DNA of 64,000 nt from the NCBI GenBank assembly GCA_009829735.1, contig CM020619.1, positions 4,417,727 to 4,481,726 of the forward strand. The letters run 5' to 3'. Below the pieces are notes generated by a model. It was not told where the DNA came from. It made no database searches and saw nothing but the letters and a program-made list of their open reading frames with translations. Within the stretch, counting starts at the first letter, position 1, and every line of letters begins with the position of its first letter. Positions 41,455 through 64,000 of the stretch are shown one piece after another. The translations under genes and the position numbers were made by a program. The DNA is from Pyropia yezoensis (lineage: Eukaryota; Rhodophyta; Bangiophyceae; Bangiales; Bangiaceae).

Positions 41455-43600
41455 GGCGGGAGAGGGAAAGGCGGGAGACGGAATGGTGGGTTCGGTTGGG
41501 CGGGGGCAAGCAGAGTGGCGAGCGTCGTGCGGGGCGGGGCGCGGCTAATGGTGGCGGGTGGGCGGGGTGGCGTCGACCCGGAGAGTGTTGCGACGTCTCC
41601 GCCCTCTCCCAAGAAAAACCGTCGACGGCGGGTGGGAGCGCGCCCTCCGCCAGCGCAACGCCTGCGCCCCCCCCCCCACCATTGCAGAGGAGGTGGGGGG
41701 GGTGCGTGTCCGGTCGTTGGGGCTGTTGGGAGGTCAGCCCGGATTCACGTCGTGGGGGGGGGGGGGGGGCCGAGGGAGGGCATAGACGGGGCGGGGGCGG
41801 TTTCGCGGTGTGCTCCCCCCGATCCACGCTCTGTGCGGGGATTGAAGGGGGGGGGGCGGTCAGGAGGCGGTTTGCACTGCGTCTTCGCTGTCCATGCCGT
41901 ATGGGGAGGTTATGACGAGGGGGGGGGGCGTCGAGGGGCGGGCGGCCTGCACTGCACCCCCCACAGAAGCACGCTGTGGGACGGGGGTCGACCGGGGGGG
42001 GGGGATAGGGCGGTCGGAGGGCAGTTTGCACTGCGCCCCCGCCGTCCATCGCGAGTGGGGGAGCTGCTGCGGGGGGGGGGGGCGCGCCGCGGGGCGCGCG
42101 GCTTACACTGCACCCCCGCCAAACTATGCTCAGGGAGGGGTGAGAAGGGGGGGAGGGGGCTGCTGGGGGGCTGTGGGCCGTGCCGGGGCTGCAGGTGGGG
42201 GGAGGGCCAAGAAATGGCTCTCCTGCCCCGGGTTGCTGGGCATTTTGTGCGGTGGAGGGTGGTGGCTGCCGCGAGAGAGTGGTGTCGGTTGTCACACAGA
42301 GCTTGGGGAAGAGAGGCCTGTGGCACGCACACCCCCCTCCCCGCCTGCTGCATGCCCCGACGCAGCCGCCCCGCCCCGCCGGAAAATATCCAGAGGGCTC
42401 GCGCGACCGCCGCGGGAGCACCACGACGAGCGCACACTCGACTGTCCAATGACATGTATCGTGGGGAGACTGTGGCAGGGGGGATTTAGGCAATGGGGAC
42501 TGTTTGTAGGTGGCGACCTGGTGGCACAACGCCCGAACACACACCTCCCTTGCAGGCGGATGATAAAGACCACTTCGCGTCGGCGCCATGACGGCCTCAC
42601 ACTTTTCCGTTACGTAATGCCCGCCACCGGCGGCGTCACACCATGGACTGCCGTGAGGGAGCCCCCCCCCTCTGTGTCTCGTCCTGGTGGGAAACGCTCG
42701 CCATATGGGCTCGAAAGCCATCAGAACGGTCCTCCCGCCAATCAGAACCGAGGCTTCCGTGCGAGGGGGGGGGGCGGACGTGCTGAGCGCACAGAGCCCG
42801 AGGGAAGGACGATGTGGTGTCTGCAAGAGAGGCTGACGCGAGAGAGAGAGAAAAGAGAGACGCAGGTGTTGCTGACCGCAAACGGACGGCTGCGGGGTCC
42901 ACGCTGGTGCCACCCGAATAATCAGCGGCTGATCAATGTACATCGTTGGCGACCCGTGGAGTCACGCGGGAAGGGAACACAGGTGACATGGTTGCCATAG
43001 GAGACACCGCGACACACCCACACTAGCACCCCCCCACCAAAACCCCCTGTATACGGGGAGACTACGGCCAATGCGGCGGGTCAAAGCGAGTGTTCCACCC
43101 GTTTCTCCCCCCCCACGTCGCGCGGATGAGCACATAGGGGGAGATCCGAGCCAGATTGCGACGCGTGCGCCGATCGTCGAGAAAATTGTACGGTTTGGGG
43201 GCCATTTGGAGGCCATGATTGCGATCGACAGCGTAGTTGCGCTCTACGTGTCACGTTTGTTCGCCCAAGAAACGCTTCGGAAGGATACGATCGCAGGCGA
43301 TCCAGGAGGCTCGGACAGTATCTCCCCCGCCAAGATACCGCGCTTCGGTGGTCCCTGTGAAATATTCTCATGGGAATGGGCTTTGGTCCGGCACGGTGTA
43401 GCAATGGCTCCGAAAATTTACGCCCGATTTTGCCGCCCTCTGACATCGTTCTACACAAGTCCTGCCCCCCCGGTTGGGGAAGCACGGTTTTGTTTGGTCG
43501 TCCAGTCACAAGCCGCCACGTGCTCCCATTTCAGCCTTAAATGAAATTCGCTTGGTCTTGGTCTCACTGTTGAAGGGTCTCGTAATGAATGTTTTTCGTG
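41455..43600. other. Region without a supported gene, containing a 76-bp tandem repeat
   Basis: This may hold the 5' part and outer end of the first Harbinger element, but I could not find a matching terminal inverted repeat on the other side. A CCAATCAG box lies at 42738. Two related sites, near 42454 and 43049, share TGTATxxGGGGAGACT. No ORF has a domain. Confidence 0.4.
41800..42160. repeat. About 76-bp tandem repeat, 4-5 units
   Basis: A TTTGCACTGCxxCCCCCGC-type block recurs at about 41873, 41947, 42025 and 42103, with a weaker copy near 41800. The spacing is 74-78 bases, and the blocks are separated by G runs. Confidence 0.7.
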
Positions 43601-44889: not shown

Positions 44890-47800
44890 TTAAAACAACA
44901 CCACGTAGCAGCCGAATACCCAGTCCATTCCCAAGCTGAAGTCAAGGTACGTGCGCCCAATGAGGGAGCCAATGTGTCGCCGTCCCAACACGATGGAGTT
45001 CTGCGAGCAGTGGCGCAGGAAGTCAGTCGGCGCCTCGCCAAGATTCATCTGCGTCATCGTCGAGCACTTCCGGTTGGCAGCGTTCATGTAGACAATGCGG
45101 GGGGCCCATGAAGCGCGAATCTTCTGCAGATGCTCGTCCAGCAGCTTTGCGCCGTCGCGCGTCAGGGCCGTTGTTTGGAACAGCTCCCTCTCGAGGCTGC
45201 GCCAGTTCGACACCACCTTGCCGGGCGTCAAGGTTGTGCTCGCTTCCGCACCAGAGTGCTTGTACTGGATAACGAAGGCAAGATTCTTGCCGACCAGCTT
45301 CGGGTTCCGCGGACACGATACACAGCGGAAAAACATAACAGCGTCGATCCCAGGAAAATTCTCTGGTAGCTGGTAGACGTAGTCCAGGATCTCGTCATCG
45401 GCGTCCGTTCTCGGCAGAATGGCCCTGACGTCGCGGACAACGACGCCCTTTCGCTTTCGAGATGCGTCGACGAGAGCGTCTTCGAGCAGGTAGCCGTTGC
45501 CAGCATACGCACACCCCTCAGCCGCCATCAGCTTCTTCAATGAAATGGCCGCGAACTGGTCCGGTTGTCGCGATCGCGCAATAGAATGGGCGACCTCTGT
45601 CTCGGGAGCAAACACCTCCCATCTGCGCCATGTCCCTACCTCGGTGCCAGACGACGGGGTTCGTTGAGAAGCGGTCAAACCCAGCTGCTGCCGCAACATG
45701 TCGTAGAAGACCAGCTTCTTGGAATCTTCGCGCTCGAGGAGCTTGACCATAACAACGACGCTCAGGCGAGGTCGAAAGCGACTGCCAGAGCCAAGAACGA
45801 GACCCGCGCGGCGCGCCAGGTCCCACGTGATCGCTGGCCGCCCCGACATGGCAGGCAGGCACACTTCGCCGTGCGAAACGAGCTTGGATAAGATGATAGT
45901 AGACAGCATGTCGTTGAGCGCGTCCGGAGCTTCCCTCAAGGCATCACTCCAGTACTTTTCAGCAAGGCCCAGGCTCAGGTCGCTAGCAACCTGCAAGAGC
46001 ACATCTTTGACCGGAAGTTGCAGGCTCCTGATACGTCCGCTGTCCCGGTTGCCGCCAACAGCCATGCTGACGTCACCGACAGCCCACTCGCCGAGGCCAT
46101 TCACATCGCCACTGGCGGCCTTTCTGCCCGAACTCGCATCCGCCCGCTGGTAACCGTAGCCCGCGTCAACCACGGCCTTGCTGCTGCCACTCTTAACGCT
46201 CGTCCGTGATATCTGACCAACTGCGTCGCCGAGGTACACTGCTCCGCGCATGTGGCCACTCGAGCAGTGAGACAAGCCCACTGCCGTGTCCCACAGCAGC
46301 TCCCCAATCTGGCGCTTGTAGTCCTTACGCTTTGACGCGGAGCTTGCAGTTGCATGTGCGTCACATAACGCAACAAGCTCGTTCAATCCAGGCCACACCG
46401 ACGACGACCTTGACAGGTACATACGCTTCAAAGAAAGCGCAATTAGGCCGTCGAGCAGTAAAGCAGCCAGTTCAGGTGGGTCGTCTCGGGATAGATCGGC
46501 ATACTTGACCGACCGACCTGAGGGTGTAGCAGCATCTACGACTGTTTGAGCCGTCAACGACGTAGAGCACACGCAAACTCGAGCACAGTCCCCAGCTGCG
46601 CACATGGAAGCCAACAAAATCTCAGGCAGGGCAGGAAGCGTGCCGTCCTTCAATATGAACAGCTCCCGGTTGTCGTAGATGAACTCACGCAAAGCAGGCA
46701 CGTTGTCGTCCACCTTTGCGGGCTCATCGACCAGGAGAACAGCACAACCACCAGGCGGGCGGCCACTCGCTGTGCGCAGAAGGCTATTAACCTCTCCTGC
46801 GATGCTCGAGGACGTCAGAGCGCCGGCAAAAAGCGCTTGATGCACACCGGCCAGAAAGCGATCAAAAAGATGACCCGGCTCCGGATGACGCAGGTCAACA
46901 TAGTGATGAAAGAGCACACGAAGACGCCACAGGTCCGCAACGTCGGTCACCTTGGCCTTAATCGCCTTGACCTCAGCACATCGAACAGAGAACGTGCTGT
47001 TGAAGTTAACAGCCAAGAAGGACAGCTTCTGAGCAAACGCCAACTTGCGCTTCGCATTTCGGCGATGCTGGAACAGAGTCGCGACCCGCTGAGGGACGTG
47101 CTGCATGATGAACGTCTTCCCGCTGCCAGCCTCCGCCACCAGACCGGAAAGGGTGTACCGCGGATCTTTGACCTTCTGCAGCTTCATAGTCGTCTGCCAG
47201 ATGTCGACGAGCTGCTCCAACGTGCGATCGACGTCGATGGTGACAGGAGGACGGCCGGGGCTGGTTGGGAACGTCATGTCCCATTGGTACGCCGGCTTTC
47301 TTCTCAGGACCCCCAACACAGCAACAACATCTCGAACAGATAGCGCGCCGCGCAGGTCCTCGCGCTCACGGTCGGTCAGAAGAGAGGTGCCCGACTTGAC
47401 AAAGGAGAGCGCGCGCCCGTTCACATCTCTTGCCTCAATCGTAGGCACAACCGAGTGGTGCACGAAAGGTGTACTGGCGTGGCCCTGAAGCACATGCGGA
47501 GGCCTCCGGCCCGCCCAGGCAAAGCTCAGTGGCATGGAGACCGGCAAGGGCATAGACCAAGCGCGCCGCAGGTCACCGCAACTCACCAGACGCTCTGGCA
47601 ACAAGGAGCCGATGTAGCGCCGCGATGTAGCCGCAAGAACGACGGTTGCTCCTTGGCGCCTCGCAGCGCGAGGATGGCGGACTGACACACCCAAAGAGCT
47701 CCCAGGGCGAACAAGACGGCCACCGGCAACCGCTCCAGTGGGAGGAACGAATAAAGCCCATCCACGCAACACATCTTGGCGCTCGTGGCATCGCGTCGGC

Positions 47801-48027
47801 AGGTCCTTCGAGCCCATCATCGACGCGACCGCCTGAAGGTGGCCGCCAGAGAAAACGCGGTGGGGTCCGCCGCGACAGAGGTCACCGCACCGGATGGAGA
47901 TATAGTGCGCGTTCGAGCCGAACGGGGAAGGGGGCGACCCGGTCGCGTCATGGAGGAAGAAGAGGCGAACAACCGCGTCGTGTGCTTGGCCAGCAGCGGC
48001 GCGACGAACGACGCAGATGGTTACCAC
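44890..48027 (-). CDS. Large P-loop NTPase with a nuclease-like C-terminus (Crinkler/RHS-type), hypothetical
   Basis: The 1045-residue ORF is uninterrupted and of natural composition. After about 200 residues of uncertain N-terminus comes a P-loop NTPase domain: Walker A EAGSGKT with the Lys at about 304, and Walker B AVLLVDEP with Asp-Glu at 434-435. A long helical middle follows (about 480-860). Near the C-terminus, GIDAVMFFRC (Asp 895) and FVIQYKHS (Gln 921, Lys 923) form a D...QxK pattern of the PD-(D/E)xK nuclease fold. NTPase plus such a nuclease is the architecture of Crinkler-type and trypanosome RHS proteins, which are linked to transposons. The first ATG is kept; the first 100 residues are Arg/Gly/Ser-rich, so a later start is possible. 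No partner gene is adjacent. Function is inferred from architecture. Confidence 0.72.
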   Translation of the reverse strand: MVTICVVRRAAAGQAHDAVVRLFFLHDATGSPPSPFGSNAHYISIRCGDLCRGGPHRVFSGGHLQAVASMMGSKDLPTRCHERQDVLRGWALFVPPTGAVAGGRLVRPGSSLGVSVRHPRAARRQGATVVLAATSRRYIGSLLPERLVSCGDLRRAWSMPLPVSMPLSFAWAGRRPPHVLQGHASTPFVHHSVVPTIEARDVNGRALSFVKSGTSLLTDREREDLRGALSVRDVVAVLGVLRRKPAYQWDMTFPTSPGRPPVTIDVDRTLEQLVDIWQTTMKLQKVKDPRYTLSGLVAEAGSGKTFIMQHVPQRVATLFQHRRNAKRKLAFAQKLSFLAVNFNSTFSVRCAEVKAIKAKVTDVADLWRLRVLFHHYVDLRHPEPGHLFDRFLAGVHQALFAGALTSSSIAGEVNSLLRTASGRPPGGCAVLLVDEPAKVDDNVPALREFIYDNRELFILKDGTLPALPEILLASMCAAGDCARVCVCSTSLTAQTVVDAATPSGRSVKYADLSRDDPPELAALLLDGLIALSLKRMYLSRSSSVWPGLNELVALCDAHATASSASKRKDYKRQIGELLWDTAVGLSHCSSGHMRGAVYLGDAVGQISRTSVKSGSSKAVVDAGYGYQRADASSGRKAASGDVNGLGEWAVGDVSMAVGGNRDSGRIRSLQLPVKDVLLQVASDLSLGLAEKYWSDALREAPDALNDMLSTIILSKLVSHGEVCLPAMSGRPAITWDLARRAGLVLGSGSRFRPRLSVVVMVKLLEREDSKKLVFYDMLRQQLGLTASQRTPSSGTEVGTWRRWEVFAPETEVAHSIARSRQPDQFAAISLKKLMAAEGCAYAGNGYLLEDALVDASRKRKGVVVRDVRAILPRTDADDEILDYVYQLPENFPGIDAVMFFRCVSCPRNPKLVGKNLAFVIQYKHSGAEASTTLTPGKVVSNWRSLERELFQTTALTRDGAKLLDEHLQKIRASWAPRIVYMNAANRKCSTMTQMNLGEAPTDFLRHCSQNSIVLGRRHIGSLIGRTYLDFSLGMDWVFGCYVVLF

Positions 48028-50833
48028 GCGAACTACAAGCGTGGTGTGGCTTCTCTCAGTCAGAAAACCCTGGAATTACCCCAGACCTGGACATGTGGCG
48101 AGGTTGTGGCATTCGAGTTTGTGGCGCAACAAACAAGGCGAAACTTCTGGTCGGCATTCTGGGGACATCCACCGTTCATCCAGCATGTGGCAGGAGGTGA
48201 CCACGAAACACTTCTCAATATAGCCCCCTCCCGGGCACGTGGGGGGCTGGTAGCGAAGCTTTATCAGCTGAAATGTTGAACTGTGAACTCCCTGAAGTGT
48301 GTGGTATCGCAGGAATTGTACGCTCGGACGGTCGGTGTGCCAAACAGTGCAGTCAATCAACAAACACAAGTATGAAGACTATGGCTGTACTTTCAAGATC
48401 CGCGCCCTGTTGCGCTGTCCTGCGCGGTATCTGCCTCGCAAGAGGACGCAGCGGTCCTGGACCGATGGCATCTTCGCTCGCGCCAAGCGGAAGAAGAGGA
48501 AAGGCCAACAACTGGCAGAGTAATCGGGTAAGTCGCGGAAGTGGGGAGGCTCACGTCGGAGCAGTGGAGATTTAAGACGACCTTTCCAGACCGGGGGCAA
48601 CAGTGAATGCTCACAGTGAGGGGCGGCGCTGCAAGGCAAGGTGCAACACGAAGGAGAGAGTTGGTGGGCCGTGGGGGGCTACCAGCTTACTGGTATCCAT
48701 GGAGGCAGCTGAGCCGGGGGGGCACGTGTGCGCATGCACAAGCACCCCTTGCACGGGTGCACGAACAAAGGACCCCCGCACGCGTGGGGTCTGCTTGGGC
48801 GAGCGCGGAGGAGCGACCCTCCTACTTCTCTTCCGCCATGCTGTCGGGCTGCGAGGGACCACGTGCGTGCGAGTACGGGGGTCAATCAGCCTCTGGATCC
48901 AGGCCTGGATAGAGAGGAGCAGAAAACGCACCTCGACCCAAGGTCCTTGGGCTCCGGTGGCAAGCTCACAGCGGGGCTTCTGGGGTTCCACAGACTCGTC
49001 TTCTCATGTCAGAACACGACAAGTCGATGTATTTATTCCCAAGAACGACACATTTCGAACGCATTCGCCGACTATTCGTCGTCCAATCATGTCAGGCCGC
49101 TGGAGAACATGCGGCTGAGCGCTATTCAAGCTTCATCCTGGCGTCGGCCAATCAGAGCCCCTATTGGCGTCCCGCTGAGAGCGATGATGAGCCATGAATT
49201 CTCCTTAAGGCTGGCCACACCGTATACAGCTTCGCTAATCAAACATACAGACTGTGCTTTCACGAACATTGGCAAGCATCAAAGCTCTCTGGGCGATGCG
49301 CGGCCAGTGCCCTGGTGGGGGTCCAGGAAGACCAGGTATCTATGTCATCGGACGATAGAGTTCTTCTTTTGTTTCTGGTGGGCCGCCACGTTAGATAAAC
49401 GCCTCCTGAGCGGAAATACTGAATATATTTGTAATAAACTATCGTGTTTCAAAGCGTCCTATATGCGACGAAATGAAGCTTGTCAAATTAGAATAGACTC
49501 GAATGGACTACATAAGTCTGTACTAATCCTGTCACAAGTACGGGAAAGTTGCTGTTCGTGGGGTTGGCCGTCTGGAACGCCACTCCACCGCAGGTAGGCG
49601 CTGGGCGTCGACGCGGTGCCCAGCAGCGACTGGGCGGCGACTAGGCGGCACCGGCGTGGCGGCGCGGGTGGTGTCGGTGGCGATGGGGTTGTTTTTTTTC
49701 TAGACGGGGTGGGGCAATCCTCCTGCGACGGCCCCCCTGTCGACGCCTGGACCACCGCCACCAATCCCCACGGCTGCGGAGGGGCGGCCCGCGGCGGGGA
49801 CGCGCTGGTCGCAGCGGACAAGCCTGGAGAGGGCGGAACGGCCGCGGCGACGACCAGCGGCGTCGCAGCCGCGGTGGCGGCCAGCGACGTGCCGGGCGCG
49901 ACGGGGTAGCGGTCCGCTGGTGGTATTAGTGGTGGCGATGGTGGTGTCGTAGGCGGTGCGGTGGCGGTGCTTGGCGGCGGCGGGTGGTGATCCCCCCCCG
50001 TCACCTTCTCAACGCTCCCTACCGCTGTCGTGGCGCCCAACGCTGTCGCCAAGGCCACAAGGGTAGGCGGCGTGGCAGTGTGGGCGGTGCATTTTGATGA
50101 CGCCGCGGCGCCGGCGCCGGCGGCGACGGAGCCGGGCCGGCGAGGTAGGGCGGGGGGGAAAGGAACCTGCCCTTCGGCGACACGGACGACGGAACGACGG
50201 GCGCCCCCGTTGACGCCGTAGCCCCCCTCCGCCCACCCGCCGGCGGCGGTGGCAGCGGCAGCGGCAGCGGCAGAGGCTGAAACGACGACGGAAACGCGGC
50301 CGGCACCCTTGCTGACCTCCCGGCGGCGCTGACTCCTCAGCCAAGGAGCTTGGCGCGGCGGTGGCGGCGGTCGCCGCTGCCACCGCCGCCACCTTCCTCG
50401 GCGACGAGCCCGCTGGTGGGGGCGGCTCCGGCGCTGTCGGCAATTGCAGCGACGGCGGCCGCGACGGCGGTGGCGGCGACGGCGACGGGGACGGCGGCGG
50501 CACCCCTTTGCGCCTGGTCGTGGCGCTGGCGCAGGCGGCAGCGACGGCCTGCCTGCCGCCGGCGGCTGCCTGCCTCCTACTCCTCTGCCTGCACTAGCGG
50601 GTCGGCCGGCGGCGGCGGCGCCCCCGGCTCGCCGCCGCCGCTGCTGCCGTCGCCGCCACAGCGGCCGCCTCTGCTGCCGCCGTAGTCGCCGCCGCTGCCG
50701 CCGCCGCTGCCGCCGCCGCCGCCGCCACCAATGCCGCCGCCGCCGCGAGCCTCCCGCCTGATGGTGCAAGACGTGGGGCGCGCGTATGGCGGTGGTTGCG
50801 GTGGCGGTGGCTTGCCAGCCTTTAGGGCGTGAC
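48028..50833. other. Region without a supported gene
   Basis: 48028-49560 is of balanced to AT-rich composition with short ORFs only, a CCAATCAG box at 49148 and an AATAAA near 49433. 49560-50830 is GC-rich. Minus-strand ORFs there (49483-50769, 50009-50503, 50577-50861) have Ala/Pro/Gly stretches that could be exons of a low-complexity protein, but the frame changes repeatedly. Imperfect GCC-type triplet repeats lie at about 50620-50745. Confidence 0.4.
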
Positions 50834-51092: not shown

Positions 51093-52280
51093 ATGGTCAG
51101 AGTGACACTCGCAACTGCAAAGCCCGCCTGTCCCTCCGTCCAACCCATGGCACTACCCGCCGTCTTCGTTGGAGCTGCGACTCTCGAGTGGCCGCCCCCC
51201 CTTCGCATGTCAGCGAGGACCATGGCATCGTCGGCGGACAGCCCGAGTTCCCCCGCCGTGACTGATCCCATTCCTGTGCCTGCCTCTCCCCGTTCTCGTT
51301 CATCTGGTCCGCCGGATTCAACGGTGTCGCCTGCAGCGAGCGCCACCACTGCGCGAGGCCCCAACATTTCCCCCGAGGAGGACTTGGCTTTGGCGCGGTC
51401 GTGGATCAACGTGTCGGAGTATATTGTCGACATGGACAGGGACTGCTTTTGGGAAAAAGTGGCGGACGTGTTTGTCAAGCAGCCGGAGGTCTCGGAGCAG
51501 CGGACACCCGGGAGCCTGCGGTCGCGGTTTTCGACTTTGCAGAAGCAATCCCAGAAGTACAATGCTGCGGAAGCCAAGTATCGTAGCGCCATCCCGTCCG
51601 GTGAGTCAGAGGCGGAAACGGTCAAGAACATTATGACGTACTACCGAGTCTCCAACAAAGTTTTGAACAAGAAGAAAGAACGTGTACCCGCCCCCATGTT
51701 CAAGAGTGTCGCTGCGGCGCACCTTCTCGCCACGTGTCCCAAGTTTTCTTCCAAGGTTCTGGCGTCTTCTACCGGCGGCAGGGCGGAACCTGGAGCGCCG
51801 TCAGCGGAGCGGCGCGAGTCAGTGGCTGGACCGTCAGAGGCTGGGACGACACCTGACACCACCAGTCCGCCTCGGGTCGCACCAGGAGCAGCTGAGCCAC
51901 CAGCTGTGGAACCAGCCATCCCGGCTGTCAAGCCGAGCGCGGCTCGCCCTCGGGGCGTCAAACGCACGAAGGCCTCTTTGGTGGACCCCAACCCCGCTGG
52001 TGCCGCCTTCGAGCGCTTGGCTACTTCCGTGACGAGCATGAAAGAGGCAATGGTCTCTTCCAACCGGCGGAAGGCGGACTTGGCGGGGTTGGCGCTAGAG
52101 GCGAAGCTGGTGGACATGCTGGACGAGGGAGCCGAGAAGCAGACGATGGTGAGGGATTCACTGCGTAGGACCAGGCAGGCCAGCACGGCAACTGACAGCG
52201 CAACCGCGTCCGCGCAGCAGCGCACACCGACCGAGGTCCCTCGTGAAGTGGACGACAATGATGAGGAAGAGGAGGGTTAG
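51093..52280 (+). CDS. Myb/SANT-like protein of the second Harbinger element
   Basis: The 395-residue ORF has a Ser/Pro-rich N-terminus and a Myb/SANT-like domain at about residues 91-135 (ISPEEDLALARSWINVSE, then RDCFWEKVADVF), followed by RTPGSLRSRFSTLQKQSQKY and a helical block to about 220. This is the trihelix-type layout of Harbinger partner proteins. The middle is Pro/Ala/Ser-rich, the C-terminus helical, ending in an acidic DDNDEEEEG tail. Starts at 51093, 51207 or 51222 are all possible; the DNA-binding part begins after all three. A CCAATCAG box lies at 51014, about 80 bases upstream of the first ATG. It is complete and uninterrupted. Confidence 0.75.
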   Translation: MVRVTLATAKPACPSVQPMALPAVFVGAATLEWPPPLRMSARTMASSADSPSSPAVTDPIPVPASPRSRSSGPPDSTVSPAASATTARGPNISPEEDLALARSWINVSEYIVDMDRDCFWEKVADVFVKQPEVSEQRTPGSLRSRFSTLQKQSQKYNAAEAKYRSAIPSGESEAETVKNIMTYYRVSNKVLNKKKERVPAPMFKSVAAAHLLATCPKFSSKVLASSTGGRAEPGAPSAERRESVAGPSEAGTTPDTTSPPRVAPGAAEPPAVEPAIPAVKPSAARPRGVKRTKASLVDPNPAGAAFERLATSVTSMKEAMVSSNRRKADLAGLALEAKLVDMLDEGAEKQTMVRDSLRRTRQASTATDSATASAQQRTPTEVPREVDDNDEEEEG

Positions 52281-52993: not shown

Positions 52994-53567
52994 TGTAGCA
53001 TCCCTGGCCCCGACTTGGCGCCGACACGGGACTGCAACCAGAGGGCACCAGGTGCCAGTACACGCCCGCCGTGTGGTGATGGTTGGCGGCCGTGGCCCGT
53101 GCCCGGCACTGGGATGCGGTGGACTACGCTATCCACACGCGAGAGAGGGATTTCTGATGTGTTTTTGCATACTTGTGAGGGACTTGATTTGAGAGAAATT
53201 GAGTGTGAGATTAGCGAGTGGGAATAGAATTAGTAGTGATAGTGGCCCCCGACCTGACGAGGTTAGACTCGGGTCGGGGCCACTCGGGGTTATGGGGGGG
53301 GGCTACCTGGCCAACGTGCCGAGGCTCCCCCAGATGCACGTTAAGAGGGACAGCGAGGCGCCCTTGGCCTGCGCCCTCAGGCAAAAAGACAACTGCGCGT
53401 TTGCTTTCCTCTTCCCCGTGTGCACTACCGTGCGTATCTGTTTGCCCTGCGAGCAGGCACGTGAGGCAACAGGCATACCATTCTCGTAGTTCCCCTTTCT
53501 GTGTTACCTGTCCCTTTCCCCCGAGGGATATTGACACGTGTCTGGGAGGATCGAGTTTTATACCACA
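52994..53567 (+). repeat. 5' LTR
   Basis: TGTAGCATCC...TATACCACA, 574 bp. It contains an inverted repeat at 53242-53283 (GTGGCCCCCGACC against GGGTCGGGGCCAC) that is better paired here than in the 3' LTR. Confidence 0.95.
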
Positions 53568-53589: not shown

Positions 53590-53778
53590 TAGTGGAGTGT
53601 TTGGGAAGAGACATTTGGGAGCAGCGGTTGGGTTGTTCCTGTTCTGTCTTTTTCTGTGGTTTGGGAATTATTTGCAACCGTTCACGGGAATCCCATTCCT
53701 GGCTCTCCAACCCCTCTCTTGTGGTCTTGCGATCTTTGGACACGCAGGCAACTGGACTGTGGCTGTCAAGAGACCAAC

Positions 53779-55539
53779 ATGGCTACCCTCCCTGGCACGA
53801 CGGTGCCCGAAGGGGTAGACCCCGCGTCCCTTGACGCATCCCTGGTCACCGCGGGGGACGGTGCCCAACCCGGCGTTCTCCCTACGGGTGAAGCAGACCT
53901 GGGCGTGACATCCGGTAGCGGACTGGAGTCTACAGGCGGCCAAGTACCTCCTGCTCCCGTTCCTCCGGCTGTTCCTCCTGTGGGAGCCACCCCGGGGTCA
54001 ACGGCGTTTGAGTCCGCTCGCAGCAGACGTCTCCCTCCTGTCGGTTCTACTCCTCAACCTCCAGGGATAGCCCCTGGTGTGTTTACTCCTGGACCCACAT
54101 ATGGCAGCTGGGTGTATACACCTCTTCCTGTGGGCACTAGCAGTGCCAGAGGCACCGCTATGACTGGTTCTACGGGTCTTCCTGAGACTTCGACTCCTGG
54201 GACCGGCCAAGCTTTTCCTCCCCTTGCATCCTATGGGGCGGGGAGCTCCAAGACCGGCAACCGGAGCAGCCGTAGGCGTCGGCGTCGTCGCCGTCGCTCT
54301 AGCACCAGCGAGACCAGTTCCTCCAGCTCTGAGGAGGGATATGACTGGGATGCATCTCCCGGTCCTACCCGGCGCAGGCTGGTCGAGTACGACTTCCCTG
54401 CCCACCAAGTGGGAGATGCCACCCTGAACAAGGTCACGTATTGGGGTAACTACCGGCTGGAGAACCAAGACCAAGGTTACACCCGGAAGATGGCCAAGAA
54501 GATGGCATCCCTGAACCGGCGAATGCAGCCGAGCTTTGGGGGACATCCTAAGTTTTCCGGGAAGAAACCGGCGCTTATCTTTGCCTTCCTGCGCCGGTTT
54601 GTCAAGGCATGCAATGACAACGATGTGTCCGAGGGCAAGGCTCTCTATCTCCTGGTTAACTTCATGACCGGAGAGGCGGAACAGCGGTTTGCACAGGTTC
54701 TACCAGACTCTGCCGGACCCATTGTCGGGCGTACCGTTGCGAGTTACCCGGAGGCGGTCAACTGGCTCCTGTCCAACTACGCTGACGCGGACTCCCTGCG
54801 TAAGGCAGTCGGCAGGTTGAACCGGGCAACCATGGAGAGACAAGAGACTCCAGAGGCATTCGCTCGTCGTGTCCGGGAGATGAGCGAGGCTTGTGGCAAC
54901 GTTTACCCTGAGGACAGGCTCAAGATGATCTTCTCAGAAGGGCTTCCTGAATATCTTCAAGTGGATGCGGAGAACTACAACCAGGAACATCAAGAACATA
55001 CCTTCCAGCAGTTGATGGCCTACACCCAGGGCAAGTACCGGCAAGCCAAGGCCCTCCAAACTCCCATGGTATCAACTCCCAAGCCGTTGTCGCGAGTTCG
55101 TCCCGGACCCGACAAGTATAAGGGAGGTGATAGCCCTGTAACGGTACTCGCAGTCGGCGAGGCCTCACCCATGGAGTCAAGGGACAAGTGGGGCGGCTTC
55201 GTTTCTAAGGAGCAACCCTCCCTGGTCACCCCCAAGCAGGTCAAGAACCAGCGGTTCCGGTCTTGCTGGCTGTGCCAGAAGGAGGACCACATGTCCTACC
55301 AGTGCCCGACCATCCCCAAGGACCTCCAGGAGAAACTCAAGCGTCAAGGACTGGTGTTTGCAAAGGCGGTCAACTGGGCTGACCGGCGGGCACCCTCCAA
55401 GATGGACAAGGCACAGGTACATGCAATCCGAGTGGCAACCTTGCAGAGCATCACGGAGGCTCTGGCAAGGGAAGCTCCTACGGACTTCGACCTGGAGACC
55501 GAAACCTCTAAGGACTCCTCGGACCCGGGAAACGAGTAG
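53779..55539 (+). CDS. gag: Gag protein of the Ty3/gypsy element
   Basis: The start at 53779 (MATLPGTTVPEG) is preferred to an upstream in-frame ATG at 53656 because it follows a 211-base leader and sits in an ACATGG context. The 586-residue protein has a Pro/Gly/Ser-rich N-terminus, an Arg/Ser-rich stretch (about 158-185), then the capsid-like gag domain at about 250-430 (GHPKFSGKKPALIFAFLRRF; EQRFAQVLP; WLLSNYADADSLRKAVGRLN; FARRVREMSEACG; EGLPEYLQ). A CCHC zinc knuckle, CWLCQKEDHMSYQC, lies at about 495-508 and should bind the genomic RNA. It ends at 55539, six bases beyond the slippery heptamer. Confidence 0.9.
   Translation: MATLPGTTVPEGVDPASLDASLVTAGDGAQPGVLPTGEADLGVTSGSGLESTGGQVPPAPVPPAVPPVGATPGSTAFESARSRRLPPVGSTPQPPGIAPGVFTPGPTYGSWVYTPLPVGTSSARGTAMTGSTGLPETSTPGTGQAFPPLASYGAGSSKTGNRSSRRRRRRRRRSSTSETSSSSSEEGYDWDASPGPTRRRLVEYDFPAHQVGDATLNKVTYWGNYRLENQDQGYTRKMAKKMASLNRRMQPSFGGHPKFSGKKPALIFAFLRRFVKACNDNDVSEGKALYLLVNFMTGEAEQRFAQVLPDSAGPIVGRTVASYPEAVNWLLSNYADADSLRKAVGRLNRATMERQETPEAFARRVREMSEACGNVYPEDRLKMIFSEGLPEYLQVDAENYNQEHQEHTFQQLMAYTQGKYRQAKALQTPMVSTPKPLSRVRPGPDKYKGGDSPVTVLAVGEASPMESRDKWGGFVSKEQPSLVTPKQVKNQRFRSCWLCQKEDHMSYQCPTIPKDLQEKLKRQGLVFAKAVNWADRRAPSKMDKAQVHAIRVATLQSITEALAREAPTDFDLETETSKDSSDPGNE
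55527..55533 (+). promoter_or_regulatory. Candidate -1 ribosomal frameshift heptamer GGGAAAC
   Basis: G-GGA-AAC is in gag phase as X-XXY-YYZ, one sense codon before the gag stop (GAG TAG). The -1 frame is open from 55512 through the stop into pol without interruption. GGGAAAC is a known retroviral slippery sequence. A downstream structure was not folded. Confidence 0.7.
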
Positions 55540-58500
55540 GGCAGGCGCTCTCCCCAAGTGTCTTCCCGAATCTCCGACGGCAGGGTACTTCTACCCGTTC
55601 TCCCCTTGCGTGCCGGGAGAAAGGACGGCAGTTACCTGCTCAACCGGTAGCCGCCTGGACACCCTGTTTGTTCAAGGGGACCTTGCTCGTCCTGCGTAAG
55701 GAAAACCTCAAGATTAATGCTCGTATGCGTGTGGGGGATAGCCTCCACCAAGCTGTTACGCCGGTGGTTGACACGGGAGCCGGACCAAGCGTCATCACTG
55801 AGAACCTGTTACCTCCGGGCTGGCGTCGACATGCCTGGAGAGCGCCTACCAAAACCCACATTGTCGACGCATCAGGTCAAACCCTACGACCGCTTGGCCG
55901 TCTTCCTGTCGCCATCTATGTCAACAATGAACCAATGCTTTTTCCCTTTCTAGTAGTCAAGACCCTATCAGTCCCCCTCATCCTAGGCTGGGACTTCCAG
56001 AAGCAGCATGTCAAGAGTATCCTGCCCGGAGAAGGAAAGGTGCAGTTCAACAATGGGTTTGTGTCACCAGTACTGGAGCACCTGGACGCCAAGGTTCGTG
56101 TGGTCAAGAACCAGAAGGAACGCATTTCACCCTCTACCTTGACCCTCTTCAAGCCGGTGCTCCTACCTCCTCGCTCGGAGACCAAGGTTCAAGTCACGAC
56201 CCGGACTGCAGGCCAATGCCTGATCTACGGACGCAAGGAATTTCTGGCGAAACACCGATTATACCTAGCCCACGGACATCACAAGAAGGTGGAGAGGCAC
56301 ACCCCGTTCTCGGTGCTGATCGTCAACGTGAGCCGGAAGCCAATCACCCTCGCCAAGGGCACCCGAGTTGGTACAGCAGAGCCTTACCGGGGGTCCCCCC
56401 ATGCTATGAGCAAGGAGGACCTCTTGAACCTGCAACAAGAGCTGGCATCCAACTTGACGGCCTCAGACGTATCTCCGGAACAAGAGCAGGCTGGCAGTGC
56501 AACTCCGAAGCCCGAACGAGCACCCCCCGGGATGCCAAAGGTCAACCAAGAAAATGTCCCTCCCGACTTGAAGGAGACACTGGAGAAGCTTCTCCAGGAA
56601 TATCGGCACCTGTGGTCTGGAGAGCTGGGCAAGATGGACGCCACCCTACATCGGATTCAACTCAAGCCAGATGCCAAGCCAGTGCACATGCAGCCATATC
56701 GGGCTGGACCTCATCGCCGGGATGAGATTGAGAAGCAGGTTAACAAGATGCTCAAGATGGATGTTATCGAGCCGTCGGATGGCGAGTGGGCTTTCCCGGT
56801 GGTAGTCGTCCCGAAAACCGGCGGTCACTTCCGTTTCTGCGTTGACTACCGGCGCCTGAACGAGATGACGGTCAAGGATGTATACCCGATACCCCGGATG
56901 GATGATTGCATCGACTTCCTTGGTGATGCCACCCTCTTCTCGACGCTGGATTGTAATGCCGGTTACTGGCAGATCCCTCTGGCTGACGAGGACAAGGATA
57001 AGACTACCTTCACGTGCCACTTGGGACTATTCCGGTGCAAGCGTCTTCCTTTTGGTCTCACCAATGCCCCGGCAACCTTTCAGAGAGCCATTGACATCAT
57101 CCTGTCGGGGCTAAGGTGGAGAACATGTTTGGTCTACCTGGACGATATTATTGTTTTCTCCAAGACCCCGACGGAACACCTGGAACACCTTCGGGAGGTC
57201 CTGGCCCTCCTGTCCAAGGCTGGAGTCACCCTCAAGGCCGAGAAGTGCCACCTGTTTGAGACTGAGGTGGAGTACCTGGGGCACGTGCTGAGTCCGGGGG
57301 AGCTCCGAGTCAATGAGAAGAACATCAAGGCCCTCTGGCATGCACGGCAACCTAAAACCCAGACGGAACTCAAGAGCTTCCTGGGTATGTGCAACGTCTA
57401 CCGCCGGTTCGTACGGGACTATGCTCTGATTGCCCGGCCATTGACCAAGCTCACCAGCAAGAAGCTTCCAGCGCAACTCCCGGTGTTCGACGAGAAGCAG
57501 ACCGCGGCTTTCGAAGAGCTCAAGAAGCGCCTGACCACCACTCCAGTACTGGCGTTACCCAAGCGGGAGGGCCAGTTTGTTCTGGAGACTGATGCCTGTG
57601 GCGTCCAGGTGGGGTGCTCACTACTCCAGCAGCAACCTGATGGGCACTTTCTCCCGATAGGCTACTACAGTCGCGTCTTGACTCCAGCCGAGAAGAATTA
57701 TTCCACGACGGAGCGCGAGTGCTTGGCAGTCGTCTGGGCTTGCTTCCTGTTACGGCCATATCTTGAAGGACAAGAGTTCCTCATCCGGACGGACCACGCC
57801 AGTCTAAGGTGGCTACTATGCATGGACAGCAGCCAAGGAAGGGTCGCTCGGTGGCGCCTACGCCTTTCGGAGTTCAAGTACAAGGTGTGCACCAGAGCAG
57901 GGAGGGAGCACCACTGCGCCGACACCATGTCCCGGCTGGAGACTCCTGCAGCCGACACCGGTCCTATCCCGGAGGAAATACCTTGCTTCATCCTCCCGAA
58001 TGTCGGACGTGGCTGGCATGCTCCCCTGTATGAGACACCTGAAGCTCATCAACCGGTAACCATTCACCGGATGCTGGAGGCACAGTTGACGGACCCTCAA
58101 TGCTTGGAGCTTCGCCACCAAATGGACCTGAACCGGAACAGTCGCTTCTCCGAGTCTACAGACGGACTCCTGGTAGGGGTGTCACCCTTCGATGGGGCAA
58201 CTCAAGTCTACGTACCCCGGAGTCTACGGGCTGACATCCTACGCCTGGAGCACTCGTCTCCCCAGGCCGGACATCCTGGTATCAATCGGATGTATGCTTC
58301 CATGAGACGACACTATTACTGGGAAACCATGGCCAGTGACGTCCATAAGTACCTGGAGGCTTGTGTTTCTTGTGCGAGGAACCGGTTGCCCCAGAGGAAG
58401 AAGACTTCCAAGCTACGCCTATTCCCTGCGGCGGAACCCTTTGCAAGCTTAAGCATGGACATCCTGGGGCCCCTACCTGAAACATCCAGTGGCAACATAT

Positions 58501-59627
58501 ACCTGCTCATCATTTGTGACCGGTTCTCCAAGTTCACTCGAGCAATCCCGCTGAGGACCATCACGGCTCTGGATGTCACATCGGCCTTCTGCGAGTACTG
58601 GATAGCTGCCTACGGCCCTCCAGACTCCGTCTTAACCGATAATGGTCCCCAGTTTGCATCCCTGTTCTTCCAAGGAGTCTGTGACCTGATGGGCATCAAG
58701 AACTTGTACACCACGACGTACCATCCTCAAACGAACGGCCAGGTGGAACGATTCAACCGGACCCTAGTGGACATGTTACGACACTACGTGGAGGAGCACC
58801 AAGAAGACTGGGACGAGCTCCTGGCTGTCCTCACTCTAGCCTACAACTCCCGAGTTCACCGGACAACGGGAGTCGCTCGACTCGACTTTGTCACCCCAAG
58901 GCGGCTGACCAACTTCTCCCTGGAAAGAATACCGGATGGTCTCCAGCCTGCACTGAAGTCAGGTCCCAAGGCAAAGGATGAGTTCCTGGAACAACTGAAG
59001 CTCCTGCTCCCGAGAGTCAAGGAGTCAATCTCGAAGACCCAGGAGCGCTACAAGCGGGAATATGACAAGGGCGTTCGGGAAAAGAACAAGGAACTAGGTG
59101 GTGGCGACTGGGTTTTTGTGGACAACCATAGCAAGACCCGGGGGAAGCTGGACTCGAAGACGGATGGACCATATGAGATCCTGAATACGGATGGCTGGAC
59201 CTTCCTTCTAGACGTGGATGGTTCCCCGTACCGGGTGAGCAGCGACCATGTCACCCGAGCTCCACCGCCAAGCAAGCGGGACTTGACCCGGCGCAAGCGG
59301 GCCGCAGTACCCTGGCTATCCCAAGAAGAAGGCCGGGAATATGTCTACGTCAAGTTTGTCGACCATGCCTGGAGAGACGGGCGCTTGTACCTGCGAGGCC
59401 GCTGGTTCGGTTTTAACCCGGCAGATGATACCTGGGAACTCTCAAACCGGTTACCCATTGCGGATGTCTGTGCCTACACGCGACGGAACGGGATAGAGGG
59501 CACTCCAGTGGCCAGGGCCGGCAAGACGCTGGAGTCGGGCGCGGAGGAGGACCAGGAGGATGGGGCTGATCAAGACCATCGGGACGAGACGAGCTCACCC
59601 GCAACGGATGCGGAACAAGAGGATTGA
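55534..59627 (+). CDS. pol: Pol polyprotein: protease, RT, RNase H, integrase, chromodomain-like tail
   Basis: Pol is in the -1 frame relative to gag and is probably made as Gag-Pol; the first ATG in frame is 55668. Numbering from it: protease DTGAGPS at 35; RT with FPVVVVPKTGGHFRFCVDYR, LDCNAGYWQIPL (motif A) and LVYLDDII (motif C, about 490); RNase H with LETDACGVQ (about 640), STTERECLAVVWA and RTDHASLRWL; integrase with the HHCC zinc motif (about 862-905), first Asp in MDILGP (about 931), LTDNGPQF (about 991) and QVERFNR (Glu about 1026). The tail at about 1225-1275 (YVYVKFVDH, LRGRWFGFNPADDTWE) resembles a chromodomain, which in chromoviruses steers integration by chromatin marks. The last 50 residues are acidic. 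No internal stop or frameshift is seen. Confidence 0.93.
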
Positions 59628-59772
59628 GAAGAAGGGAACGGGTGTATCAAGGAAAACACGCAATGCAAGCAAGGAACAATCAAGAAAAACAAACACCCGC
59701 TCGAGCAACCCTTCTCTCCGCCTCTACCCTCCTCGCTTTTCCCCAGACTCTCACCCTCCTTGCCTCCAAGTA

Positions 59773-61890
59773 CTACTCCCGGCGCGGACGCTGAGCCGCG
59801 GGAGCGTCCTCCAGCGCTGCCTCTGCGGCACGACGGGAACCGGAGGAAGACGGGATGACGTAGTGCGGTGGACGCGAGGCATCCCGGTATGACGCCATCG
59901 GGGTAGTACCGGTAGTTGCCGGGGGCTCCCGCTCATCCAGATATGCCCGTCGGCGCCCCTGGAAGCCAGTGAAGGTCTCTGACCACCGCTGGGCCAAGCC
60001 ATGCCGCGTCAAAGTCGCCAGAAGTTCGCCAACCACCGGGCTGTTCGACATCTGGCCGCTGTCCGCGCACGCAAACACCCGGTCGACCACGTCGTTCAAG
60101 ACGCTGGCATAAGTGCCCAGCACCAGGGAGGACCCAACGCCTTCAACCTGCACCGGAAGACGACCCAGCTGGTCTTCAATCATACCGACGTCGTACTGGT
60201 CGCAGGTCGGACCACCTTGGATCAGGTACCAGTCAGGCACCCGGAAGCGGGTAAGGCGCAGAGTTGGCGCCGGAATCTCGAACCGCCCCGAGGATGACAC
60301 TACCGGACGGTCCACAACGGCCCCAGAAACCGGAGTACCCAACTCCAGCGGAGGCACAGCGCCGCCGGCGTTGGAAGAAGGCGTCCGAGGCAGAGCGGCC
60401 GGAGTAGTCGGCGACCGCACGGCCACCCCCAGACTCGCTGCGGACAAGCGCGGTGCCGGAGGAGCCTGAAGCACCGGCACAGCCGGAACAGGGCGCGGAC
60501 GCGCCGGCGACGGTTCAGGCGAGGCCACCGGGGCGACAGGTGCAACAGGAGGAAGCGGAGCCGCCGCAGACGCCTGACCGACCGCCGCGGCCCATCCCGA
60601 CTCTTGCACCGGCGGCCCAGCTGGCAGAAGATCAACGGCGACCGGAGCAGGAAAGCTGCCCAGCTGCGGCCACGCCGGAAGCGGTGTCGCGAGCTGCACC
60701 TTGGCCGGAGAAGACTGGTAGACCACCTGCGCCCAACCGGAGCCATCCCGACGCGGGCGGTTCTGGTCGGCAATCGCGTTCAAGAAGTTCCGGTCATGCA
60801 CCGGCACTAGACGCCGGAAGTCAATCATCGCCTGGAAGAGCCCCTTGTACTCCTCGTCCTGGCTGCACAGGAAGTCGACGGTCAACTTGTCGACAATCCA
60901 GACCATCAGGAGGTCGGGGACAAACCAAAGCCGGTTGGACACCAAGACCTCGTGAAGCCAGTGGTTGGCCGCCAAGACTGTCATCTCGGACGTGTACATC
61001 ATGTACGGGATTGAGTGGAAGAAGCCCTTCATCGACGCCTGGGTCAAGGCGTCCAAGAAGTACCAGGTGAAGGGGATGCTAGAAGGAGCAAACCCGACCG
61101 GGATCTCGACTTCCTGCTGCTGCGGGATGACCTTGGGGTAGTACGCCGCCCGGTTAGCCTTGTCCAGCTTCCAGAACTCTTGGTGGTTGCAGCTCACGAG
61201 GAAGTCACGCTGACGCCCGCGTCGCTCACCCTGCTCCCGTGCCGGCGACAACTTGGAGTACTTCCGGGTCAGGAAGGGCGGCTCCAGAGCGACCATACTC
61301 GGACGGGGATCGCAGTTCAGGCTCCCCGACCCCTTGAGCGCCTCATCCCAGACCTTGAGTGCCCGGTGGACGTACCCTTCCTCCTCCGGCCACCGGAGAA
61401 CGGACGCGGACACGCGACGCTCGGTCAAGGGTAGATCCAGCACCAGCGCGAAGGGGAGATCCTCCAGACGAGCAACCCAAGAGGAACCCGAGAAGCTCTG
61501 GGAGCGGTCTTGTGCCAGGCGCATCTGGTCCGCCGTGTGAAGACGAGCCTTATCCATCTCGGTCAAGACCCCGCGCTGGAGTTCCTTGCGCCAGAGGTCC
61601 AAGCAATCCTGCTGGCACTGGGCCGCGCCGGCGTTGCCGACCACCGTGGAGTAACGCCGGGCCGCCAGGGGGTCCTGCCCAAGAAGCATCTCCGGGAGAC
61701 CCACCGGGGGGGTCTCGACCGGGTGCAACGCAGAACCCGGGGGAACCCGATCCGTCTCCGCCGTAGCAGCCGGCGCCGGCACCGACACCCGAGGAACCGG
61801 AGGCAGGAGAAGGGCGCGACTACCCGAGTTCTCCTCCGCAACGCTCGCCGCCGGAACCACGGGCCCAGCTTGAATCTCGGAACTGGACAT
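59773..61890 (-). CDS. Large antisense ORF inside the LTR retrotransposon, function unknown
   Basis: This 705-residue ORF runs opposite to gag-pol, converging on pol with 145 bases between stops; its ATG is 187 bases inside the 3' LTR. Composition is that of a real protein. Residues about 80-390 form a helix- and aromatic-rich region (LDLWRKELQRGVLTEMDKA; EFWKLDKANRAAYYPK; GFFHSIPYMMY; LWFVPDLLMVW). About 400-520 is a Pro/Ala linker; about 535-650 is a second folded-looking part (LTRFRVPDWYLIQGGP; LATLTRHGLAQRWSETF). The end is basic (RPRRE). I recognise no Gag, Env or transposase motif. Antisense ORFs are known in some plant Ty3/gypsy elements such as Grande, but I cannot show homology. A promoter must lie in or near the 3' LTR on minus. 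Confidence 0.75.
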   Translation of the reverse strand: MSSSEIQAGPVVPAASVAEENSGSRALLLPPVPRVSVPAPAATAETDRVPPGSALHPVETPPVGLPEMLLGQDPLAARRYSTVVGNAGAAQCQQDCLDLWRKELQRGVLTEMDKARLHTADQMRLAQDRSQSFSGSSWVARLEDLPFALVLDLPLTERRVSASVLRWPEEEGYVHRALKVWDEALKGSGSLNCDPRPSMVALEPPFLTRKYSKLSPAREQGERRGRQRDFLVSCNHQEFWKLDKANRAAYYPKVIPQQQEVEIPVGFAPSSIPFTWYFLDALTQASMKGFFHSIPYMMYTSEMTVLAANHWLHEVLVSNRLWFVPDLLMVWIVDKLTVDFLCSQDEEYKGLFQAMIDFRRLVPVHDRNFLNAIADQNRPRRDGSGWAQVVYQSSPAKVQLATPLPAWPQLGSFPAPVAVDLLPAGPPVQESGWAAAVGQASAAAPLPPVAPVAPVASPEPSPARPRPVPAVPVLQAPPAPRLSAASLGVAVRSPTTPAALPRTPSSNAGGAVPPLELGTPVSGAVVDRPVVSSSGRFEIPAPTLRLTRFRVPDWYLIQGGPTCDQYDVGMIEDQLGRLPVQVEGVGSSLVLGTYASVLNDVVDRVFACADSGQMSNSPVVGELLATLTRHGLAQRWSETFTGFQGRRRAYLDEREPPATTGTTPMASYRDASRPPHYVIPSSSGSRRAAEAALEDAPAAQRPRRE

Positions 61891-62063
61891 GACGTCCAGG
61901 CTCCGGGGGGAACGAGAGGGCCAAGGTGAAGGAGAAAGGGGAGGTGGCAGAACCGGAGCAGGTGATCGTGACCGGGGGGAAGACGCTCGACCTCGGCACC
62001 GGTGTGGACGTGCTCGAGGCTGTGCACGGTGGCACCTGGTTCGGCCCGAGGACGTGCCGGACT

Positions 62064-62073
62064 AGGGAGGGAG
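62064..62073 (+). other. Polypurine tract
   Basis: AGGGAGGGAG lies three bases before the 3' LTR, in the expected place for priming plus-strand DNA synthesis. Confidence 0.75.
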
Positions 62074-62076
62074 CTA

Positions 62077-62650
62077 TGTAGCATCCCTGGCCCCGACTTG
62101 GCGCCGACCCGGGACTGCAACCAGAGGGCACCAGGTGCCAGTACACGCCCGCCGTGTGGTGATGGTTGGCGGCCGTGGCCCGTGCCCGGCACTGGGATGC
62201 GGTGGACTACGCTATCCACACGCGAGAGAGGGATTTCTGATGTGTTTTTGCATACTTGTGAGGGACTTGATTTGAGAGAAATTGAGTGTGAGATTAGCGA
62301 GTGGGAATAGAATTAGTAGTGATAGTGGCCCCCGACCTGACGAGGTTAGACTCGAGTTGGGGCCGCTCGGGGTTATGGGGGGGGGCTACCTGGCCAACGT
62401 GCCGAGGCTCACCCAGATGCACGTTAAGAGGGACAGCGAGGCGCCCTTGGCCTGCGCCCTCAGGGAAAAAGACAACTGCGCGTTTGCTTTCCTCTTCCCC
62501 GTGTGCACTACCGTGCGTATCTGTTTGCCCTGCGAGCAGGCACGTGAGGCAACAGGCATACCATTCTCGTAGTTCCCCTTTCTGTGTTACCTGTCCCTTT
62601 CCCCCGAGGGATATTGACACGTGTCTGGGAGGATCGAGTTTTATACCACA
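62077..62650 (+). repeat. 3' LTR
   Basis: 574 bp, same ends as the 5' LTR. Of the six differences I see, three fall together in the right arm of the inverted repeat (around 62354-62366). Confidence 0.95.
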
Positions 62651-63031: not shown

Positions 63032-64000
63032 TCATGGCTGTTGTGTCTCCCCACGAACCGACCACAAGTGATCAATTAATGAAGCACGCAGAGGAACATG
63101 CCCACTCTCGCTCATGACCTCGTCCGAGCGCTCCACCAAGGACGCCAGCCCAACACAAGGTCCCACAGGTGAAGCAATATCCCCGGCCCCATGCATACCA
63201 GGGAGGCACTCGTAAAACTCATCCAGCACGCCAACAGACTCCCCCCCATCATCCGCCTCGCCGGCGAGCTCCCCATGCTTATCCATGGATGCAATCAAAT
63301 TGTGCAAGATAATGCACACGTCCGCAACCTGCAATATCAACTCGTCACTCCACTCTTCCCTGTCTTGACGCAGTATCCGAAAGCGCCCCTGAAGACACCC
63401 GAAAAACCTCTCAACATCCTTACGTATCGCTTCTTGGCACTTCTTGGCGTGAATCTCTTTCTCGCTTGTTGCACCAGAGCCGGGAAGAAAAAAAATCGCC
63501 CATCGCGGGTATATGCTGTCGCCGAGAAAGAAGAGTGGCCAGGAACGTCGGATTCCGTTCAGAACGTAGCCACCAGGAAGATGGATGCACCGGCGGCCGC
63601 ACAATATCTCGGAGAAGAGGGGGCTGTGGCTGGCAACAGTGATATCGTTGTTCGTACCTGGCCGACCAGCAAACCAGTCCATGCAATACAGGTCCCCGTC
63701 CACGAGCGCCTGGCACGACAGCACCGCCAGTTTTCCGTCCTTAGGGTTGTGGTACTGTCCTTTGAAGGCTCTGGGGCAGTTCTTCCACTTGATTTTCATG
63801 CAGTCCACTGACCCCATACAGCCTGGGAGACCACGCGCCGCAAAACTGTCCGTCAGGGCCGCGAGCTCAGCTGCAGTCGGATGCCGGTTCAAAAATTGAG
63901 GTCCAAATCGGGACCGCACGGCACGGAGGACGGCTACAAAAGCTTGTCGTTGAGCCTCCACCGACATGCGGGAGTGGTCGTCGAGATCTCGAAATGATCG
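63032..64000 (-). CDS. PIF/Harbinger transposase, N-terminus beyond the window
   Basis: The frame is open from the window edge to 63032, with at least 322 residues; an ATG at 63967 exists, but upstream residues (RSFRDLDDHSR) fit the family, so the start lies outside. The DDE residues are in GSVDCMKIKWKNCP, PGTNNDITV and KDVERFFGCLQGRF, followed by the usual CIILHNLI. The C-terminal 60 residues are acidic and less conserved. It is not interrupted in the part seen, unlike the transposase at 35940, and the two proteins differ strongly, so they belong to different Harbinger families. Its partner is probably the Myb/SANT ORF at 51093, now 10.7 kb away because of the LTR insertion. Confidence 0.88.
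   Translation of the reverse strand, partial: RSFRDLDDHSRMSVEAQRQAFVAVLRAVRSRFGPQFLNRHPTAAELAALTDSFAARGLPGCMGSVDCMKIKWKNCPRAFKGQYHNPKDGKLAVLSCQALVDGDLYCMDWFAGRPGTNNDITVASHSPLFSEILCGRRCIHLPGGYVLNGIRRSWPLFFLGDSIYPRWAIFFLPGSGATSEKEIHAKKCQEAIRKDVERFFGCLQGRFRILRQDREEWSDELILQVADVCIILHNLIASMDKHGELAGEADDGGESVGVLDEFYECLPGMHGAGDIASPVGPCVGLASLVERSDEVMSESGHVPLRASLIDHLWSVRGETQQP

Follow-up and report, generated by a model that had tools for sequence, protein, structure and literature searches.

A Ty3/gypsy retrotransposon of the red alga Pyropia yezoensis very probably carries an antisense protein gene between pol and its 3' LTR

Background

Antisense open reading frames located between pol and the 3' LTR are known from the flowering-plant retrotransposons Retand, Grande and RIRE2 (PMC11963269, PMC7264820). 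Retand, a lineage of eudicots and Liliopsida, is described as standing outside the chromoviruses, and in 97% of its clusters antisense ORFs with the TRP28 domain are present (PF04195; PMC11963269, PMC7264820). For Grande, a promoter upstream of the antisense gene is reported to drive its transcription, and the protein is reported to be nuclear (PMC7264820). Regulation of element expression or of host silencing has been proposed as the role of these plant proteins. Outside plants, the Boty-like elements of the fungus Botrytis carry the antisense gene brtn (PMC7264820, PMC8365987), and HTLV-1 possesses the minus-strand gene HBZ, whose promoter is located in the 3' LTR (PMC7264820, PMC11963269). 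Flowering plants and a fungus are thus far the hosts in which antisense extra genes of LTR retrotransposons have been described.

Chromoviruses have already been reported from red algae (PMC3605345). The published 107-Mb assembly of P. yezoensis, which made use of PacBio transcriptome data, has a GC content of 65% and consists to 48% of repeats, mostly LTR elements (PMC7423979). For elements of red algae, no report of an antisense ORF was found in the open-access literature searched by title and start of the abstract, a corpus that leaves most subscription papers outside. Here we describe such an ORF (aORF) from a 64-kb stretch of P. yezoensis DNA, which is called the window in the following.

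Results and Discussion

Structure and affinity of the element

Judged from its sequence, the retrotransposon in the window is a Ty3/gypsy element that has multiplied in Pyropia yezoensis and has a chromodomain-like pol end (Table 1). Both LTRs are bounded by TG...CA and differ in 6 of 574 positions in a gap-free pairwise comparison (98.96% identity), in agreement with the value of about 99 percent given in the initial annotation, which had called the element young. The length of the target-site duplication is unreadable because the element is inserted in a run of six C. The gag and pol genes lie in different frames, and their stop-free runs overlap. In gag, the zf-CCHC match (E 0.021) is under the curated Pfam cut-off, while RT, RNase H and integrase of pol score above their cut-offs and the protease slightly below (20.0 vs 20.7 bits).

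Table 1. Position of the features of the retrotransposon in the window
Feature	Position	Strand	Remarks
5' LTR	52994..53567	+	574 bp, TGTAGC...ACCACA, ends read off the sequence
gag frame	53593..55539	+	stop-free run, which may begin ahead of the real start; weak CCHC zinc knuckle
pol frame	55512..59627	+	protease, RT, RNase H, integrase, apparent C-terminal chromodomain
pol/aORF gap	59628..59772	.	145 bp separating the convergent stop codons; shared variants 0.124 per site
Antisense ORF (aORF)	59773..61890	-	705 aa, ATG start, ~77 kDa
aORF segments	residues 1-100; 101-350; 401-540; 541-660		loose; strongly constrained; Pro/Ala linker; conserved
aORF leader and polypurine-tract side	61891..62076	.	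non-coding; GGGAGGGAGCTA at its end, just before the LTR
3' LTR	62077..62650	+	574 bp, paired with the 5' LTR
TATAAAA	62639..62645	-	LTR edge; candidate antisense promoter element

The antisense frame is present exactly where it had been annotated, between pol and the 3' LTR and with an ATG start. It meets pol tail to tail, as had likewise been observed, with the two stop codons 145 bp apart and its ATG 186 bp from the 3' LTR. Its position is that of the aORF-3R class, i.e., antisense to gag-pol and within the interval from pol to the 3' LTR. The GC content of the aORF is 0.657, against 0.592 in gag and 0.567 in pol.

In the PDB, the C-terminus of pol finds matches among HP1/CBX chromodomains (best E 1.7e-4), and the Pfam chromodomain gives no match at E<=1 across the whole of pol. 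We interpret this as pol seemingly ending in a chromodomain, which the initial annotation had missed. Its reading of the element as young, as Ty3/gypsy and as bearing a protein-coding ORF on the antisense strand is supported. Because of the PDB matches at the pol end, the element is labelled here as chromovirus-type, an assignment drawn from domain order and chromodomain matches. The element shows the chromovirus arrangement of PR-RT-RH-INT with an apparent chromodomain at the C-terminus of the integrase, the latter without a Pfam chromodomain match and the protease just under the cut-off.

Abundance of the antisense frame in the genome

The aORF-bearing element is present in hundreds of copies in the nori genome, of which 107,475,971 bases in 11 contigs were searched. 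A codon pattern for the peptide WYFLDAL is found at 391 places (0 for the reversed control), and a second pattern, with up to two mismatches, at 468 places (14 for the reversed control). At least 63 close copies of the aORF exist (63 scored of 25370 candidates). The initial annotation had regarded stops and a lack of purifying selection in other copies as evidence against a gene; 50 of the 63 listed copies have no stop, and purifying selection is found (see below). The 48 copies at the top of this list were taken for alignment, leaving out 15, and 38 of these 48 have an intact aORF. Both shares, 50 of 63 and 38 of 48, are biased upwards, as the list holds the best-scoring places and the 48 are its top part. 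Alignment to the 2118 nt of the window is gapless in 47 of the 48, the exception being L030 with 9 inserted bases.

In most of the copies examined, the spacing between pol and the aORF is nearly constant. Pairing was assessed for the 97 of 419 pol-motif places that were listed on contig C1, with aORF places listed on C1 to 27.43 Mb. Within 27.4 Mb from the start of C1, an aORF motif lies on the opposite strand 1.57-1.64 kb beyond 73 of the 97 pol chromodomain motifs, compared to 1 in the same-strand control. Conversely, 73 of 106 aORF motifs in this region have a pol partner and 33 have none. At least 2 of the 24 pol motifs without an aORF motif have an aORF match in another search.

Chance frame or gene

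The stop-free run of the aORF extends over 762 codons. None of 500 first-order simulations of positions 59628-62076 reached 705 codons (longest 514). Stop-free runs of this order (600 codons or longer) nevertheless number 11 in the GC-rich window, 3 of them being frames of this element, and the length of the ORF by itself is therefore weak evidence. A chance open frame in GC-rich DNA would be in keeping with these further long runs, some of which lie on opposite strands of each other. Against it stand the 19 and 15 stops in the remaining two frames of the same strand and, above all, the frame-specific selection between copies, by which the question is settled.

Variants shared by at least two copies should mostly date from the replication of the element, and singletons mostly from the time after insertion. 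Variants and segments were counted in 46 of the 48 copies, leaving out L005, whose alignment is one base short, and L030 for its inserted bases. The 190 shared variants comprise 139 synonymous, 51 missense and no nonsense changes (observed/expected N/S 0.18). Among the 344 singletons, by contrast, 123 are synonymous, 212 missense and 9 nonsense (observed/expected N/S 0.79; Fisher P 7e-17 for the difference); mutations confined to one copy are thus under largely relaxed selection. Selection on the aORF is as strong as on the 3' end of pol, since shared variants in the same 48 copies amount to 142:56 (synonymous:missense) in the former and 86:34 in the latter, without stops in either (P 1.0).

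In the 168 nt of the leader from 61891 to 62058, read in the frame of the aORF, shared variants include 12 synonymous and 18 missense changes and 1 stop, which differs from the aORF (P 0.0007), and coding therefore starts at or near the ATG. Within the protein, residues 1-100 are loosely constrained (18 missense, 12 synonymous) and residues 101-350 strongly (6 missense, 46 synonymous); the remainder is intermediate. Chance is ruled out by the frame-specific constraint, leaving an accidental frame extremely improbable, and we regard it as practically certain that the aORF is a selected protein gene.

Alternatively, the functional product could be the antisense RNA and not a protein, e.g., double-stranded RNA by which the number of copies is restricted. 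This explanation draws some support from plant elements, for which a regulatory role of antisense transcripts is under discussion (PMC7264820). The shared variants in the red-algal element, however, are distributed as 29, 31 and 130 over codon positions 1, 2 and 3, and such freedom of the third position requires a translated product. An RNA in place of a protein is thus very unlikely, while an RNA role in addition to the protein is possible.

Sub-families and deletion derivatives

The aORF has diversified into sub-families. A comparison of dN/dS between element copies, as the initial annotation had proposed, yields 0.12-0.27 against L001 (L036 0.12, L004 0.16, L053 0.22, L057 0.26, L058 0.27, L060 0.26), with 0.22-0.27 for the sub-families that are 10-20% apart in protein. 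For the alternative frames, computed for 8 pairs, dN/dS is >1 in every pair in four of five; the fifth, on the sense strand with coinciding third positions, has values of 0.17-0.55 but contains 12 stops in the window copy.

The divergent copies are in different states of preservation. Among 8 divergent places from the WYFLDAL list, only L053 (90% identical) has retained an open frame across all 705 codons; the remaining 7 are broken, with 62-95% identity in pieces. L057-L060 come from another search and were chosen partly for their long open frames. L058 (80%) and L060 (83%) have no stop in 705 codons and both have lost the ATG, L058 also the stop codon; dN/dS between these two is weaker (0.46). 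L057 (85%) is open over 693 codons without a stop codon, and L059 is broken.

Four further unmatched pol ends (L061-L064) all retain a part of the aORF and therefore resemble deleted or truncated copies. One deletion, equivalent to 59658-61394 of the window, is common to L061 and L064, that of L063 is a different one, and in L062 the match stops at 60455. The junction of the common deletion occurs at three places in the genome (L061, L064 and G000:C3:29182816), two of which were shown to have different flanks. As L061 and L064 are 98.1% identical and differ in their flanks, a derivative lacking the greater part of the aORF has transposed and multiplied a little. Its spread fits either a protein supplied in trans or a dispensable protein.

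Affinities of the protein

The 705-aa protein looks like a new family with respect to Pfam, NCBIfam, PHROGs, the PDB, viral contigs and prokaryote genomes. The protein of the window matches no Pfam family at E<=1, and the best Pfam match over 20 members of the alignment has E 0.041 (DUF6525, in 2 of 20), with PF04195 not among the matches. The alignment of the aORF (A2) corresponds to a version A1 without L055 and one piece of L049 and with three A1 rows shortened. NCBIfam and PHROGs gave no relative of the aORF; 2 pattern matches in viral contigs and 17 in prokaryote genomes were obtained, none of which was confirmed. The initial annotation had seen no known motif either, and no DNA-binding or silencing motif was found in the aORF.

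A search of the PDB returned 7 matches, five of them to Rieske-subunit chains at residues 474-556 (best E 0.0086), the others being 2q5i at residues 616-697 (E 2.7) and, at residues 285-384 (E 0.87), the defence reverse transcriptase 9yfd. The PDB profile search gave 6 matches, all at residues 428-555 (best E 0.02). We judge the matches in the linker to be compositional and those to 9yfd and 2q5i to be due to chance. The Pro/Ala linker (42% P+A) is located between the strongly constrained region and the conserved C-terminal part. It had been annotated as lying between two folded-looking parts; the linker itself is borne out, and the folding finds no support in AlphaFold2 models from a shallow alignment, in which pLDDT is 28 over the full length and reaches 51 over residues 540-662, where helices are predicted at this low confidence.

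Pro-rich linkers occur in Gag proteins, and this feature, together with the large size of the protein and its predicted helical C-terminal part (weak at the pLDDT given above), might point to a structural or particle-associated factor translated from an antisense mRNA, i.e., a second gag-like protein, a nucleic-acid chaperone or an Env-like protein. Similarity to the element's own gag is limited, however, to Pro/Ala-rich stretches (best E 0.10), and a derivation of the aORF from that gene was rejected. Env-like ORFs are described as sense-oriented (PMC7264820) and would have transmembrane segments; the aORF is on the minus strand and has no strong transmembrane stretch, its best 19-residue hydropathy being 1.56. 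Consequently, we consider a structural factor unlikely.

An antisense protein unrelated to the rest of the element would also fit a host gene captured as a unit with its own promoter, which kept its cellular function and now serves the element, and the higher GC content of the aORF compared to gag and pol is in line with such an origin. Yet no donor was found in the window, the family-profile libraries, the PDB or the prokaryote and viral collections, a weak test in which the search of the host genome was swamped by copies of the element. We regard capture as decidedly unlikely.

The red-algal element resembles Retand, Grande and RIRE2 in that an antisense ORF is located between pol and the 3' LTR in most copies (73/97) and is conserved like other element proteins. 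It differs from Retand, a lineage defined as non-chromovirus Ty3/gypsy, in its chromodomain-like pol end, its red-algal host and an aORF protein without a TRP28 match, and membership in the Retand/TRP28 group was rejected on the pol end and the Pfam results. A genome-wide search for PF04195 gave no match, but recovered 0 of 14 controls and is hence uninformative. Boty-like elements likewise carry an antisense extra gene in a gypsy element, in a fungal host; this likeness is drawn from the description of brtn. HBZ is a bZIP protein, and the aORF has neither a bZIP nor any other Pfam match, so that HBZ is a possible analogue of the layout by analogy only. The red-algal antisense ORF, which encodes a protein family of its own, appears to be a new variation on the layout known from plants and a fungus. 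If it is indeed unrelated, its presence in a chromodomain-bearing element, under selection as strong as that on pol, would suggest that the layout has arisen more than once and benefits the element.

Antisense expression and putative role

Two transcripts are implied by the layout: gag-pol would start in the 5' LTR, and an antisense mRNA in the 3' LTR or close to it. We infer leftward transcription of the aORF from an antisense promoter within or next to the 3' LTR, which would yield a second mRNA apart from that of gag-pol. A possible antisense promoter element is the motif TATAAAA, which in the window occurs only at the edge of the 3' LTR and at the counterpart in the 5' LTR, in both cases on the minus strand (the shorter TATAAA is present at other places as well). 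Over the 17 bp of the LTR edge, 40 of the 48 copies are identical. The motif overlaps the integrase recognition end, which is another possible cause of its conservation. A leader transcribed from this TATA would contain four ATGs ahead of that of the aORF, and simple scanning from a promoter at the LTR edge is therefore disfavoured.

The ~77-kDa protein would act in trans, most likely in the nucleus, and regulate element expression or host silencing. A silencing suppressor and a regulator of the sense transcript had also been guessed at in the initial annotation, and both stay conjectural. A nuclear regulator or anti-silencing factor is favoured because of the analogy with the antisense gene of Grande, and we give a trans-acting nuclear regulatory role a little short of an even chance. 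Taken as a whole, the explanation of a genuine, selected antisense accessory gene that is expressed from an LTR-side antisense mRNA and encodes a trans-acting nuclear protein has, in our estimate, a probability of roughly 0.5. The multiplied copies that lack most of the aORF, with their deletion at three places, speak for action in trans, but fit a dispensable protein as well. Further points against the whole explanation are the lack of a DNA-binding or silencing motif among the features searched for, and the incomplete association with pol in the examined part of C1 (33/106 aORF motifs without a pol motif, 24/97 pol motifs without an aORF motif).

It is conceivable, though speculative and somewhat unlikely, that a red-algal chromovirus independently evolved a two-strand genome, in which gag-pol is expressed from one LTR and an antisense mRNA from the other, and in which a trans-acting protein of a new family counters silencing or activates the LTR. 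Such a protein would correspond to HBZ and to the TRP28 proteins of plants, but would not be related to them by descent.

Neighbouring features

On one side of the retrotransposon lies an ORF at 51093-52280 (+) with a weak NAM-associated match (E 0.015, below the cut-off), and on the other a Plant_tran/DDE_Tnp_4 transposase ORF at 63032-64000 (-). Given both flanks, it may have inserted into a DNA transposon, which we take to be of the PIF/Harbinger type. A second ORF with a NAM-associated domain (E 8.6e-7) at 39289-41544 (-) is possibly another transposon partner gene. The stop-free frame of 1061 codons at 44893-48075 (-) contains a GSGKT P-loop and matches no Pfam family at E<=0.001; it may encode a Crinkler/RHS-type NTPase. 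Positions 1962-6712 consist of a tandem array of about four copies of a ~1198-bp unit, 98-99% identical, with a GC content of about 50% in surroundings of 65-75%; Rfam has no match in the 64-kb window. Host-like genes encode a large ankyrin-repeat protein at 9111-12140 (-) and a transporter of the tryptophan/tyrosine permease family at 17176-19884 (+).
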